Shown here: piece after piece, positions 16,436 to 22,846 of the stretch
How positions within the stretch are numbered: position 1 is the stretch's first letter
How the letters are laid out: every line of letters begins with the position of its first letter
Assembly: GCA_016213735.1 (NCBI GenBank)
Contig: JACQZU010000025.1
Span: forward strand, 1-55,240
Length of the DNA: 55,240 nt
Reading direction: 5' to 3'
Source of the DNA: Acidobacteriota bacterium
Lineage (GTDB): Bacteria; Acidobacteriota; Holophagae; Holophagales; Holophagaceae
Notes under the pieces: model-generated
What the model was told of the DNA's origin: nothing
The model's database searches: none
The model's input: the letters and a program-made list of their open reading frames with translations, nothing else
Made by a program: the position numbers and the translations under genes

Positions 16436-17968
16436 TCAGAGCCGGAATTTCCGCACGATCTCCTTCAGGCCCTCGGCGACGCGGGAGAGGTCCTCGGCGG
16501 TCCGGGTGACCTCCTGCACCGTGGCGGAAAGCTCCTGGGTGGCGACGGCATTCTGGTCCAGCCGCTGGGCGGTCTGGCCCATGAGGGCCCGGACCTCCGC
16601 GCTGGTGCCGGCCTGCCCCTGACTGAGGTCCCCCATGTCCCGGATCCCCCGGGAGACCTCGGTCACCCGCTGCCGGATCGCCTCCAGGCGGGTGAGGGTG
16701 CTGTCCACGCTGGCGGTGCCTGCGTCCACCGCGGCCATGGTGCTCTGGATGATCCCCTCGATCTCCTGGGCGGATTGCGCGCTCCGCTCCGCCAGCTTGC
16801 GGACCTCCTCGGCCACCACGGCGAAGCCCTTCCCGTGGACCCCGGCCTTGGCGGCCTCGATGGCGGCGTTGAGGGAGAGGAGGTTGGTCTGGCGGGCGAT
16901 CTCCTGGATCACCTGGACCGCCTGGACGATGCGGTCCGTGGCGAGGCGGATCTGCGCCATGCCCGTGGAGGTCTCCCGACCGGATTCCGCGCCCCGGGCC
17001 GCATCCTGGACCGCCTCGTCGCTGCCGGCCCGGGTGTCCATGGCCTTGCCCGCCAGGGTGGCGACGTTGGCCTCCAGCCGTTCCAGGGCCTCCTGGACGT
17101 GGGTGCCCGAGTCCCGGAGGCCCTCTCCCACCCGCGCGGTCTCCGCCACGGTGCGGGACATCTCCTCGGCCCCCGCCGCCAGTTCCAGGGAGCCCGAAGC
17201 CACCCGGGCGGAAGCCCCCTCCACCTCCGCGAGGCTCGCCTGCAGCTGCCGGGCCATGGTGTTGAAGGACCCCGCCAGGGTCCCGATCTCGTCCGAGCTC
17301 CGCACGGGCGCCTCGACCCGGAGGTTCCCCCCGGCCATGGACTTGAAGGCATCCCCCAACTCCACCAGGGGCTTCAGGATGATGCGGCTCACCGACTGGT
17401 GGATCATCCCCAGGACCAGGAGCACCGCCGCTCCCGCGGCGAAGGCCCCGAAGAGCCAGGTGTTCCGCTGATCCCGGGCGAGGGAGGCGGTGGAGATGGA
17501 CGCGCCGAACCCCGCGGCGAGGGCACCCTCCTTGAGGTCCTTCGTCGCGGTCATGCCGAAGGCTTCGTGGCAGGTGTTGCACTCGCTCTTGAGGACGCCG
17601 GCGGCGAGCACGTAGAGCGTGGGGGTCCCGTCCGGGGAGTTGAACCGGCCCACCCGGTGGGTCAGGGAGGGGTCCCGGGCGAACTCCGCCATGGACTGGC
17701 GCTCGAATTCCTCTTCCTTCCCCCCGCCCTGGATCCCCGACACGGGAACGCGGTGGTACTTCATTCCCCGGCTCGCGCAGTAGTTCTCCGCCTCCTGGTG
17801 GAACATCCAGCGGGAGGCCAGGGCGATGGCCTGGAGCTGCTCCTCGAAGGCCCGCTCCGCCCGGCTGCTTGCGAGGGCCCCCACGCCCCAGGCCGCCGCC
17901 ATGAAGAGGAGGACGAGGAAAACACCCACGGGCAGCATGAATTTCGAAGCGAGCTTGAGCCTGTCCAT
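16436..17968 (-). CDS. Methyl-accepting chemotaxis protein with heme-binding periplasmic sensor
   Basis: The product is 510 residues. TM1 (about 10-33) is followed by a periplasmic domain of about 130 residues of the DUF3365/Tll0287-like type, with a single c-type heme motif CNTCH at 130-134. TM2 (about 168-190), a HAMP domain (SRIILKPLVELGDAFKSMAG) and a long cytoplasmic signalling coil follow. The conserved hairpin tip is present (IARQTNLLSLNAAIEAAKAG, then GFAVVAEEVRKLAERS). The heme suggests sensing of redox state or a small gaseous ligand, known for this sensor class but inferred here. No other chemotaxis gene is in the window. Confidence 0.93.
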   Translation of the reverse strand: MDRLKLASKFMLPVGVFLVLLFMAAAWGVGALASSRAERAFEEQLQAIALASRWMFHQEAENYCASRGMKYHRVPVSGIQGGGKEEEFERQSMAEFARDPSLTHRVGRFNSPDGTPTLYVLAAGVLKSECNTCHEAFGMTATKDLKEGALAAGFGASISTASLARDQRNTWLFGAFAAGAAVLLVLGMIHQSVSRIILKPLVELGDAFKSMAGGNLRVEAPVRSSDEIGTLAGSFNTMARQLQASLAEVEGASARVASGSLELAAGAEEMSRTVAETARVGEGLRDSGTHVQEALERLEANVATLAGKAMDTRAGSDEAVQDAARGAESGRETSTGMAQIRLATDRIVQAVQVIQEIARQTNLLSLNAAIEAAKAGVHGKGFAVVAEEVRKLAERSAQSAQEIEGIIQSTMAAVDAGTASVDSTLTRLEAIRQRVTEVSRGIRDMGDLSQGQAGTSAEVRALMGQTAQRLDQNAVATQELSATVQEVTRTAEDLSRVAEGLKEIVRKFRL

Positions 17969-19735: not shown

Positions 19736-20098
19736 CTACTTGGGCGCCGTCATCTTGAAGTCAGTGTGGCAATCCAGGCACTTCACCACCGGAGGCTTGT
19801 GCTGCCGGTGGCAGTCGGGGCAGCTGATGGGCTCGGGGTGCTTGTCCGCCGGGGGGCTGTGCGGATTGGGCTTGAGGTGCTTCGTGTAGGCGGCCATGGC
19901 GGGGTAGTCCCCGTGGCAGACCATGCAGGAATCGTCTGCCACCGCGGCTTTCGAAGGATTCTCCTTCCGGTGGCAGTCGTGGCAGAGCACCCCGACCTTC
20001 GCGTGCTTGGCGGGGAGCGGACGCTTGGGCTCCTCCGCGGGAGCGGACGCCAGGGCGGAACCGAGCAGGAGGGTGAGCAGGATTTTCGGAAGCTTCAT
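19736..20098 (-). CDS. Periplasmic tetraheme cytochrome c (c3/STC-like), copy 1
   Basis: The product is 120 residues with a signal peptide (KILLTLLLGSALASA). Four CxxCH motifs lie at 39-43 (CHDCH), 58-62 (CMVCH), 93-97 (CPDCH) and 107-111 (CLDCH). Additional histidines (KH at 31-32, KH at 73-74, NPH at 78-80, RQH at 98-100) can serve as distal ligands. The NPH...C-x-x-CH-x-x-H...C-x-x-CH order resembles the small tetraheme cytochromes and the heme domain of flavocytochrome c3, which shuttle electrons in the periplasm. It diverges from a PstS-like gene, and the pair is duplicated next door. Confidence 0.92.
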   Translation of the reverse strand: MKLPKILLTLLLGSALASAPAEEPKRPLPAKHAKVGVLCHDCHRKENPSKAAVADDSCMVCHGDYPAMAAYTKHLKPNPHSPPADKHPEPISCPDCHRQHKPPVVKCLDCHTDFKMTAPK

Positions 20099-20285
20099 GG
20101 ATGCCCCCAGGAATGGATCCATTGATACTTGACGGGCCCGGAAGGGCGGAGGAAAAAAATTTCGGGATCGGTGGGTCATTAATATTTTATGCTCGAAACA
20201 GGCCCTCTGCCGGGGTAAATCGAGAATCGTTCTCCCCCGATCTCCGTTTTCCCCCGGGCGCGATCAACACTCCTGGAGGTTTTCC

Positions 20286-21284
20286 ATGAAACATCCAGCC
20301 ACCCTCCTTCCTGCCGCCCTGGTGGTCCTGCTCGGCGGGGCCCTGGCGCCCCCCCTGGGGGCGCAGTCCATGCAGTTCAGGGCCAAGGTGGCGGACACCA
20401 TCCCGAAGTACGCCCCGAAGGTGAGGGTCAGGGGGGTCCTGGAAGTGCCCGGCACGGACTCCCTCTCGGACCTCGGGGACGAGTGGAACAGGTCCTTCAG
20501 GCAGTTCCACCCCGAGGGGCGGCTGATCTATCTTCCCAAGCTCAGCAAGGAAGCCATCAAGGACCTCAACGACGGCGTCCGCGCGGTGATCGTCTCGGCC
20601 CGCGAAATGACCTCGGAGGAAATGCAGGCCTTCCGGACCAAGTTCGGCTACATGCCCATGCGGATCCCCGTGTGCCTGGACGCCAACATCGTGTTCGTGA
20701 ACAAGACCAATCCCATCACCTCGATCACCATGGAGCAGCTGGACGCCATCTACGGGAAGGACCGGAAGGGCGGACTGAAGGAACCCCTCCAGACCTGGGG
20801 AGACCTCGGCGTCCGCGGGGACCTGGCCAAGCGGCCCATCAACGCCTACGCCCGGGAAGAGGGCAGCGCGATCCGCGCCACCTTCGCGGCGGCCACCCTG
20901 CTCGGAGGAGACTTCCGGCCCGGGATCGCGGCCCGGGGGGACTCCTCCTCCCTGGCGGAATCGATTCTCACCGACCAGGCCGGGATCGCCTTCGGTCCCA
21001 TGGCGTCCTGGTACACCACCAACAAGATCCTTCCCGTGGTTCCCTACCAGGGTTCGGACGCGCGGCTGCCCACCCAGGAGATGGTCACCACGAGCCGCTA
21101 CCCCATGCCCATGCTCTACTACGCCTACGTGAACCGCCCCCCGGGCCAGGCGCTGGACCCGGCGGTGGACGAGTTCCTCCACTTCGTGCTGTCCCAGGAA
21201 GGTCAGAACACCGTGGCGGACGTGGGGCTGTTCCCTGGGCCCACCGAATTCCTCACCATCGCCATCAAGCGCCTGGACCGCTGA
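20286..21284 (+). CDS. PstS-like periplasmic substrate-binding protein, copy 1
   Basis: The product is 332 residues with a signal peptide ending PLGAQS. Sequence features fit the PstS-like binding-protein fold: VIVSAREMTSEEMQAFRTKF, YMPMRIPVCLDANIVFVNK, ITMEQLDAIYGKDR, TWGDLGV, and YAREEGSAIRATF. The family binds phosphate or related oxyanions, but no pstC, pstA or pstB gene lies near, so it may be a sensor, a scavenging protein or part of another process. Its divergent partner is a tetraheme cytochrome. ATG 20286 follows CTGGAGG. Confidence 0.88.
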   Translation: MKHPATLLPAALVVLLGGALAPPLGAQSMQFRAKVADTIPKYAPKVRVRGVLEVPGTDSLSDLGDEWNRSFRQFHPEGRLIYLPKLSKEAIKDLNDGVRAVIVSAREMTSEEMQAFRTKFGYMPMRIPVCLDANIVFVNKTNPITSITMEQLDAIYGKDRKGGLKEPLQTWGDLGVRGDLAKRPINAYAREEGSAIRATFAAATLLGGDFRPGIAARGDSSSLAESILTDQAGIAFGPMASWYTTNKILPVVPYQGSDARLPTQEMVTTSRYPMPMLYYAYVNRPPGQALDPAVDEFLHFVLSQEGQNTVADVGLFPGPTEFLTIAIKRLDR

Positions 21285-21311
21285 GGTCCGGGCCGGGGTG
21301 CGGAGGGCTGG

Positions 21312-21671
21312 CTACCGGGCCTTCATCTTGAAGTCCGGGTGGCAGTCCAGACATTTCACGACGGGCGGGGCGTGCTGCCGATGGCAGTCGGTGCAGGGGG
21401 GCTGGGCCGGGTGCTTGCCCCCGGGGGGCTTGTGGGGATTGGGGTTGAGGTGCTTGGTGTAGGCGACCATGGCGGCGTAGTCCCCGTGGCACATCATGCA
21501 GGATTCGTCCGCCACCGCCGCCTTGGAAGGGTTCTCCTTCCGATGGCAGTCATGGCAGAGCACCCCCGCCTTGGCATGGCGGGCGGGAAGGGGTTTCGGG
21601 GTGTCCCCCCCCGCCCAGGCGGGCAGGGCCCGGAGGGCAAGGGTGAACACCTGGATGCCGGGGGAGATCAT
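21312..21671 (-). CDS. Periplasmic tetraheme cytochrome c (c3/STC-like), copy 2
   Basis: The product is 119 residues and very similar to the cytochrome at 19736-20098 over its whole mature part. The four motifs CHDCH, CMMCH, CTDCH and CLDCH occur in the same order and spacing, with the NPH and RQH histidines kept. The N-terminus (IQVFTLALRALPAWAG) is a weaker export signal, with no basic residue before its hydrophobic stretch, so its start is less certain. It diverges from the second PstS-like gene, and its stop is 27 nt from the end of the first one. Confidence 0.88.
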   Translation of the reverse strand: MISPGIQVFTLALRALPAWAGGDTPKPLPARHAKAGVLCHDCHRKENPSKAAVADESCMMCHGDYAAMVAYTKHLNPNPHKPPGGKHPAQPPCTDCHRQHAPPVVKCLDCHPDFKMKAR

Positions 21672-21847
21672 GGGTATCCTCTGGAATTCAGGCCCCGCCT
21701 GGGCCTGGGGGTGGTCGAGCCGGCCAAATCCTATCACGACTCAGGAGTCCTGAACCCATCGCTCCATCCCTGCCCGACCCCTCAGCCCCCCCGGTCCGCG
21801 CTTCGGCCACCACCGGGTCTCCCGATCCCTGTTGTTCCGGTGCTTCC

Positions 21848-22846
21848 ATGTCTTCGCTCCTCCCCCCTTCCCGCCGTCTCCTCGCCTTCATGCTGATGCT
21901 GGGAGCGACGGGAATCCTGGACGGCCAGGTTCCCCCGCTCCGCCCGACGGTTTCCAGTGCCTTGCCGGCGTACCACCCCAAGGCCCAGGTCCGGGGGGTG
22001 CTGGAGATTCCCGGAACGGATTCCCTCGCCTCCATGGGGCACCGTTGGAACCAGGGCTTCAAACGCTTCCACCCGGCGAGCAGCCTGGTGTACCTTCCGA
22101 GGCTGACCCGGGACGCCCTGAAGGAATTCGTCGAGGGGGGCCGGAGCCTGGTTTTCTCAGCCAGGGAGATGACCCCGGAGGAGAAGCAGCGCTTCAAAGG
22201 GAAGTTCGGGTACCTCCCCATGCGGATCCCCGTGTGCATGGACGCCAACGTCGTGTTCGTGAACAAGGCCAATCCGATCCCGGCCATCACGATGGAGCAG
22301 CTGGACGCCATCTACGGCCGGGACCGGAAGGGTGGCCGCAAGGAGGCCATCCGCACCTGGGGCGACCTGGGGGTCGCCGGGAGCCTGGCGGGCCGTCCCA
22401 TCACCGCCTACCTGCGGGAAGAGGGCAGCGCCATCCGCGGCGCCTTCGCATCCGCGGCCCTTCTGGGAGGGGAGTTCCGTTCCGGCCTGGTGGTCCGGGG
22501 GGACTCCGCCTCCCTGGCCGAATCGGTCCAGGCGGATCCTGCGGGCATCGCGTTCGGCCCCATGGCGGCGCTGGAACCCGCCAACAAGGTCCTGCCGGTG
22601 GTGCCCTTCCAGGGGAGCGAGGCCCGGCTCCCCACCCAGGACCAGGTCACCACCAGCCGCTACCCCATGCCCATGCTCTACTTCGCCTACGTCCACCGGC
22701 CCCCGGGACAGCCCCTGCCTCCCCTGGTGGACGAATTCCTCCATTTCCTCCTCTCCCGGGAGGGACAGGGGACGGTGGCCGAAGGCGGCCTGTTCCCGGG
22801 GCCCATGGAGTTCCTGGCCATCGCCCTCAAGCGGCTGGACCGCTGA
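21848..22846 (+). CDS. PstS-like periplasmic substrate-binding protein, copy 2
   Basis: The product is 332 residues, the same length as the copy at 20286-21284 and aligned without gaps in all the motifs seen: LVFSAREMTPEEKQRFKGKF, MRIPVCMDANVVFVNKANPI, MEQLDAIYGRDRKGG, EEGSAIRGAFASAALLGGEF. The signal peptide is LLAFMLMLGATGILDGQ. Most differences are conservative, so the pair arose by duplication and has been kept. The ligand is unknown and no transporter genes accompany it. ATG 21848 has no strong ribosome site upstream. Confidence 0.88.
   Translation: MSSLLPPSRRLLAFMLMLGATGILDGQVPPLRPTVSSALPAYHPKAQVRGVLEIPGTDSLASMGHRWNQGFKRFHPASSLVYLPRLTRDALKEFVEGGRSLVFSAREMTPEEKQRFKGKFGYLPMRIPVCMDANVVFVNKANPIPAITMEQLDAIYGRDRKGGRKEAIRTWGDLGVAGSLAGRPITAYLREEGSAIRGAFASAALLGGEFRSGLVVRGDSASLAESVQADPAGIAFGPMAALEPANKVLPVVPFQGSEARLPTQDQVTTSRYPMPMLYFAYVHRPPGQPLPPLVDEFLHFLLSREGQGTVAEGGLFPGPMEFLAIALKRLDR

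Follow-up and report, generated by a model that had tools for sequence, protein, structure and literature searches.

Within the window, the whole 55,240-nucleotide stretch of DNA that was analyzed, positions 19736 to 22846 hold two consecutive head-to-tail units, each consisting of a gene for a tetraheme cytochrome on the minus strand and a divergent gene for a PstS-like protein on the plus strand. The layout and strands are those described in an earlier note on this DNA. The features, with their Pfam matches, are as follows:

19736..20098, minus strand: tetraheme c-type cytochrome copy 1; 120 amino acids, secreted, four CXXCH motifs; Cytochrom_c3_2, E = 4.9e-15
20099..20285, no strand: divergent intergenic region of unit 1; 187 bp, without the GTGA-N6-TCAC palindrome of Geothrix
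20286..21284, plus strand: PstS-like periplasmic binding protein copy 1; 332 amino acids; PBP_like_2, E = 4.4e-24
21312..21671, minus strand: tetraheme c-type cytochrome copy 2; 119 amino acids, four CXXCH motifs; Cytochrom_c3_2, E = 4.9e-15
21672..21847, no strand: divergent intergenic region of unit 2; 176 to 218 bp, set by the PstS start chosen
21848..22846, plus strand: PstS-like periplasmic binding protein copy 2; 332 amino acids; PBP_like_2, E = 2.8e-23

After refinement, the cytochrome genes probably start at 20098 and 21671, and either 21848 or 21890 is possible as the start of the copy 2 PstS-like gene. Unlike copy 1, the copy 2 cytochrome (21312-21671, minus strand) has a weak signal peptide with no basic residue near the start; its export may be impaired, or its start may have been misjudged. 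No permease or ATPase gene was seen near the pair at the window locus, as the earlier note had also stated for phosphate transport.

Copies 1 and 2 are 66 to 67% identical, both for the cytochromes and for the PstS-like proteins, and 300-nt repeat blocks link the two units, spaced 1573 and 1562 bp apart. The two copies in the window were sisters in the maximum-likelihood trees of the PstS-like proteins (support, 100/99) and of the cytochromes (support, 99/93), with a longer branch for copy 2 in both trees (0.64 versus 0.13 for copy 1 in the PstS tree). The cytochrome copies differ by a dS of 0.696 and the PstS copies by one of 0.684, and dN/dS was ∼0.37 for both. The sister positions in both trees and the equal dS indicate that the whole unit was duplicated once, in this lineage, which upholds the proposal that both halves had been copied together. 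Both copies have since been retained under purifying selection.

A gene for a methyl-accepting chemotaxis protein (16436-17968, minus strand) lies 2.3 kb from the pair. Its Tll0287-like sensor domain, a sub-threshold Pfam match, contains a CXXCH motif, and the protein is possibly a heme-based chemoreceptor. It was ruled out as a third member of the unit because it is not kept beside the pair in other genomes.

Features of the two proteins

The four CXXCH motifs (66-70, 85-89, 120-124, and 134-138) were invariant among 59 cytochrome homologues, as were the additional histidines His59, His107, and His127 (59 of 59), a pattern consistent with bis-histidine hemes. The best matches in the PDB were to flavocytochrome c3, whose heme domain the cytochrome resembles, and the top NCBIfam match was CctA (NF047727), at 27.7 and 22.8 bits, below the cut-off of 180. 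STC/CctA and the flavocytochrome c3 heme domain have the same four CXXCH motifs in a Cytochrom_c3_2 arrangement. However, the cytochrome of the pair differs from flavocytochrome c3 in having no flavin domain, and it differs from STC/CctA in being partnered with a binding protein as well as in its low score against the CctA model.

An AlphaFold2 model of PstS-like copy 1 (pLDDT, 87) could be superimposed on Pseudomonas aeruginosa PstS (4OMB) with a Z score of 38 and 1.7 Å over 298 residues, at 32% identity, and the predicted fold is clearly of the PstS type. The scores of the window copies against the PstS family model TIGR02136 were 103 and 97 bits, below its cut-off of 206.6. P. aeruginosa PstS (PA5369; 4OMB and 4PQJ) thus shares fold and subfamily with the PstS-like protein, which differs from it in that there are no adjacent pst transporter genes, a pocket serine is changed, and a cysteine (Cys130) is added. 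P. aeruginosa PstS has non-transport roles too, one together with CtpL, a chemoreceptor, and one in biofilms (PMC5439949).

Sequence alignment with PstS proteins from pst operons suggests that the anion site is partly kept (Arg190, Asp132, Ser/Thr87, and Ser/Thr194), with Thr196 replaced by Ile in both window copies. Arg125 of Clostridium perfringens PstS, the equivalent of Arg190, contacts phosphate (PMC12421899). In all 22 aligned proteins of the paired clade, the residue just before the conserved Arg106 is Ala, Asp, or Gly, where PstS from pst operons has serine. A single cysteine, Cys130, is found in 21 of these 22 at a position occupied by Ala in pst-operon PstS, two residues ahead of the pocket-side Asp132. 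Cys130 was ruled out as a hallmark of pairing, since it is also carried by three unpaired paralogues from two other clades (L085, L087, and L102). In the Geothrix rubra protein (L084:8983-9981), Cys130 is replaced by Gly and there are cysteines at pocket positions 56 and 241, and the protein at locus L026 has all of these cysteines together. Such changes within the clade might reflect a disulfide or a metal site that switches.

The earlier note had raised the idea of a redox process on a bound oxyanion, in which the binding protein would present a reducible oxyanion such as vanadate, chromate, selenite, or arsenate for reduction in situ by the cytochrome. Phosphate is not reducible by such a cytochrome route. 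The largely kept anion site and the placement of Cys130 just before Asp132 are compatible with this idea, as is the analogy with AioX, in which a pocket cysteine is proposed to bind arsenite. However, the pair has no catalytic center apart from hemes of the apparent bis-His type, genes for oxyanion reduction or resistance are absent from the loci, Cys130 is not tied to pairing, and a ligand would be buried in the closed PstS cleft. No direct support for reduction of a bound oxyanion was found, and it seems improbable.

The pair among Holophagaceae genomes

The distribution of the close PstS clade and the close cytochrome clade was surveyed in 77 Holophagaceae genomes. Each clade was found in 40 genomes; 39 genomes had both genes and 36 had neither, leaving one with PstS but no cytochrome (G023, 80% complete) and one with the cytochrome but no PstS (G038). 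The Fisher p value for this co-occurrence was ∼1e-19 across the 77 genomes, not corrected for kinship, and because presence of the pair is clumped in few clades, with the tree of pst-operon PstS taken as a rough species marker, the statistic reflects only few independent events.

By coordinates, the two genes lie next to each other in divergent orientation in 38 of the 39 genomes with both genes, across three genera, which rules out a pairing unique to this genome. The exception (G036) has kept the PstS-like gene and the palindrome described below, with no cytochrome beside them, and at some loci a single PstS is accompanied by two cytochromes. Holders of the pair include, among others, Geothrix fermentans, G. 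limicola, G. rubra, G. oryzisoli, G. terrae, G. paludis, G. fuzhouensis, and G. campi. In a phylum sample of 396 genomes, no homologues of the pair were found outside the Holophagaceae at E 1e-58, and the only deltaproteobacterial relative encountered (L135; 37% identity) had no cytochrome nearby.

The pair is set in at least five unrelated neighborhoods. Its flanks are UPF0102/exonuclease VII in the window; in most Geothrix they are a glycosyltransferase and CysS, in G. rubra an epimerase and a CBS protein, and in genus g9 a 6-phosphogluconate-dehydrogenase-like gene. Yet other flanks occur. It is conceivable that the genes are neighbors by inheritance and have independent functions, as might be suggested by a presence or absence that tracks few clades and by the limitation of the pair to one family. 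However, a stand-alone unit with the same divergent layout in 38 of 39 genomes and so many unrelated settings is not passive synteny, and joint duplication with equal dS, along with the rate covariation reported below, also argues against passive linkage, which is disfavored and very unlikely. Repeated retention of the unit in unrelated neighborhoods is a stronger argument than the co-occurrence statistic. The earlier note had taken a pairing limited to this genome as grounds for refutation; the pairing extends far beyond it, and a functional link between the two genes is well supported.

Among linked Geothrix genes, PstS and the cytochrome had the most strongly correlated rate residuals (r = 0.78 to 0.87 in three settings). 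The rate residual of the cytochrome also correlated with that of CysS (r = 0.62 to 0.72), so linkage effects contribute and the rate method is noisy.

A gene with a CXXCH motif was present within four genes of PstS at 21 of the 22 paired-clade loci that were fetched and at none of 18 loci of other PstS-like copies in the family, true pst-operon PstS included, which rules out an association of PstS paralogues with cytochromes in general. A dedicated pst operon (PstS, two permease subunits, ATPase, PhoU, and a PhoB-like protein) is located on another contig (C22) of the same genome, so the window binding proteins are not the cell's only PstS.

Several other PstS-like and cytochrome genes were encountered in the family. 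In Geothrix, a second clade of orphan PstS-like proteins (L087, L088, and L089; 43 to 45% identical) is encoded by tandem duplicates that are accompanied by neither cytochrome nor permease genes. Two genomes of genus g4 (G051 and G052) have an unusual expansion of seven to nine PstS-like genes each, and the three copies fetched from G052 (L093 to L095) had no heme-protein neighbors. An extra, solo tetraheme cytochrome with no PstS-like partner is found beside ValS in Geothrix (L097:9539-9898 and other loci), and the window pair is near the same ValS gene cluster. In G006, the pair is adjoined by a 1,008-residue protein with 42 CXXCH motifs (L104:10876-13902) and by a 269-residue multiheme protein.

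The shared intergenic region

A palindrome of the CRP/FNR type, GTGA-N6-TCAC, whose distance from the PstS start hardly varies, was detected in 23 of the 25 Geothrix-type intergenic regions of the pair (23 of 33 overall, compared with 0.11 expected from shuffles). It was absent from the intergenic regions of the window and from genera other than Geothrix, and regulation through this site is thus not common to the whole clade. The suggestion of co-control in the earlier note is partly supported by the palindrome in the shared intergenic region of Geothrix. A scan for CTGTCAT repeats as a shared PHO box was uninformative even at true pst operons.

The strict palindrome is rare, with just 2 to 5 copies per genome in four Geothrix genomes. 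One copy is upstream of a gene for a PepD-like peptidase in all four (L139, L140, L145, and L146; site at 1501), and another is ahead of a NarK-like transporter in G. fermentans.

One regulator of the CRP/FNR type might induce both genes during anaerobic or metal-reducing growth with no contact between their products. The PstS-like protein would then scavenge phosphate, released for example from iron oxides, for a distant PstCAB, and the cytochrome would act separately. The position and rarity of the palindrome, including the copy before the NarK-like transporter, point in this direction, as do the apparent retention of most phosphate-contacting positions and the one genome that retains PstS alone. 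Co-regulation of this kind does not account as readily for a pairing that persists in the window and in other genera without the palindrome. Furthermore, the pst operon already has its dedicated PstS, other PstS-like paralogues are never paired, and the serine before Arg106, which is a phosphate ligand in studied PstS proteins, has been lost clade-wide, with the additional change of Thr196 in the window copies. Co-regulated phosphate scavenging, which would also cover the second refuting case of the earlier note (binding proteins that serve a distant pst operon), is a tenable but tentative alternative.

Interpretation and relation to known systems

The two genes form a real, co-inherited, and jointly duplicated unit, apart from the pst operon. 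We favor a role of the PstS-like protein as an accessory or sensor working with an electron carrier over co-regulated phosphate scavenging, and we estimate a probability of roughly 0.4 that the pair is a periplasmic module of the Holophagaceae in which the tetraheme carrier and the PstS-fold partner serve one electron-transfer process. The soluble tetraheme carrier and its orphan anion-binding partner of the PstS fold would be expressed from one divergent promoter region. The binding protein would dock on the cytochrome, or on the redox partner of the cytochrome, depending on bound oxyanion, and docking would support or gate electron transfer.

This preference is based on the conserved pairing, the 18 unpaired controls, the joint duplication, the rate covariation, and the separate pst operon, together with the PstS fold, the partly kept anion site, the replaced serine before Arg106, and Cys130. 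It is weakened by the clumped presence of the pair, the lone PstS of G036, the loci with two cytochromes, and the correlation between the cytochrome and CysS. The phosphate site also appears to be largely intact, so plain phosphate binding fits as well. A more specific version of the accessory role, in which the PstS-like protein would be a subunit gated by an oxyanion, docking on the tetraheme cytochrome in one way with the anion bound and in another without it, is doubtful. If true, it would mean that a periplasmic anion steers respiratory electrons in metal reducers of the Geothrix type.

Holophagaceae, Geothrix among them, are iron-reducing acidobacteria of soil, and the routes of electrons through their periplasm have been charted poorly. 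The pair offers a small, testable entry point, a putative anion-binding protein linked to a respiratory cytochrome without a transporter, and it cautions against taking orphan PstS genes automatically for phosphate uptake genes.

No description of the pair was found in the open-access papers searched. The statement in the earlier note that no system of this kind has been described needs to be narrowed, because XoxJ/XoxG, MxaJ, AioX, and ArrX are known pairings of a binding protein with a cytochrome or redox enzyme, but it holds in that none of them combines PstS with a tetraheme cytochrome. AioX, ArxX, and ArrX are orphan periplasmic oxyanion-binding proteins of arsenic respiration with a pocket cysteine, which in AioX is the one proposed to bind arsenite (PMC5908839). 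Like the PstS-like protein, they are orphans that are linked to a redox system and have a cysteine at the pocket, but they belong to a separate subfamily near PhnD and are always accompanied by a sensor kinase and a regulator, whereas no sensor histidine kinase or response regulator (XSR) is conserved beside the pair.

The binding proteins XoxJ and MxaJ belong to an SBP family other than that of the PstS-like protein. In XoxJ/XoxG and MxaJ/MxaG of the PQQ methanol dehydrogenases, one electron transfer requires both a binding protein and a c-type cytochrome (PMC7391723). These systems resemble the pair in having a secreted partner with a binding-protein fold beside a cytochrome and no transporter genes. 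They differ from it in that their cytochrome is a cytochrome cL rather than a tetraheme cytochrome and in that they include a dehydrogenase gene; no PQQ dehydrogenase gene was present at the pair loci in the neighborhoods examined. Pairing and rate covariation are indirect signs that the binding protein of the pair may interact functionally with a redox partner. XoxJ/XoxG and AioX/ArrX are the nearest described arrangements, and neither matches the pair in family or accompanying genes; a new gene pairing of limited phylogenetic range is well supported. XoxJ/XoxG serves here as a loose working analogy, with the PstS-type protein in the role of XoxJ, and the pair could extend to the PstS family the idea of a binding-protein fold as an electron-transfer partner.
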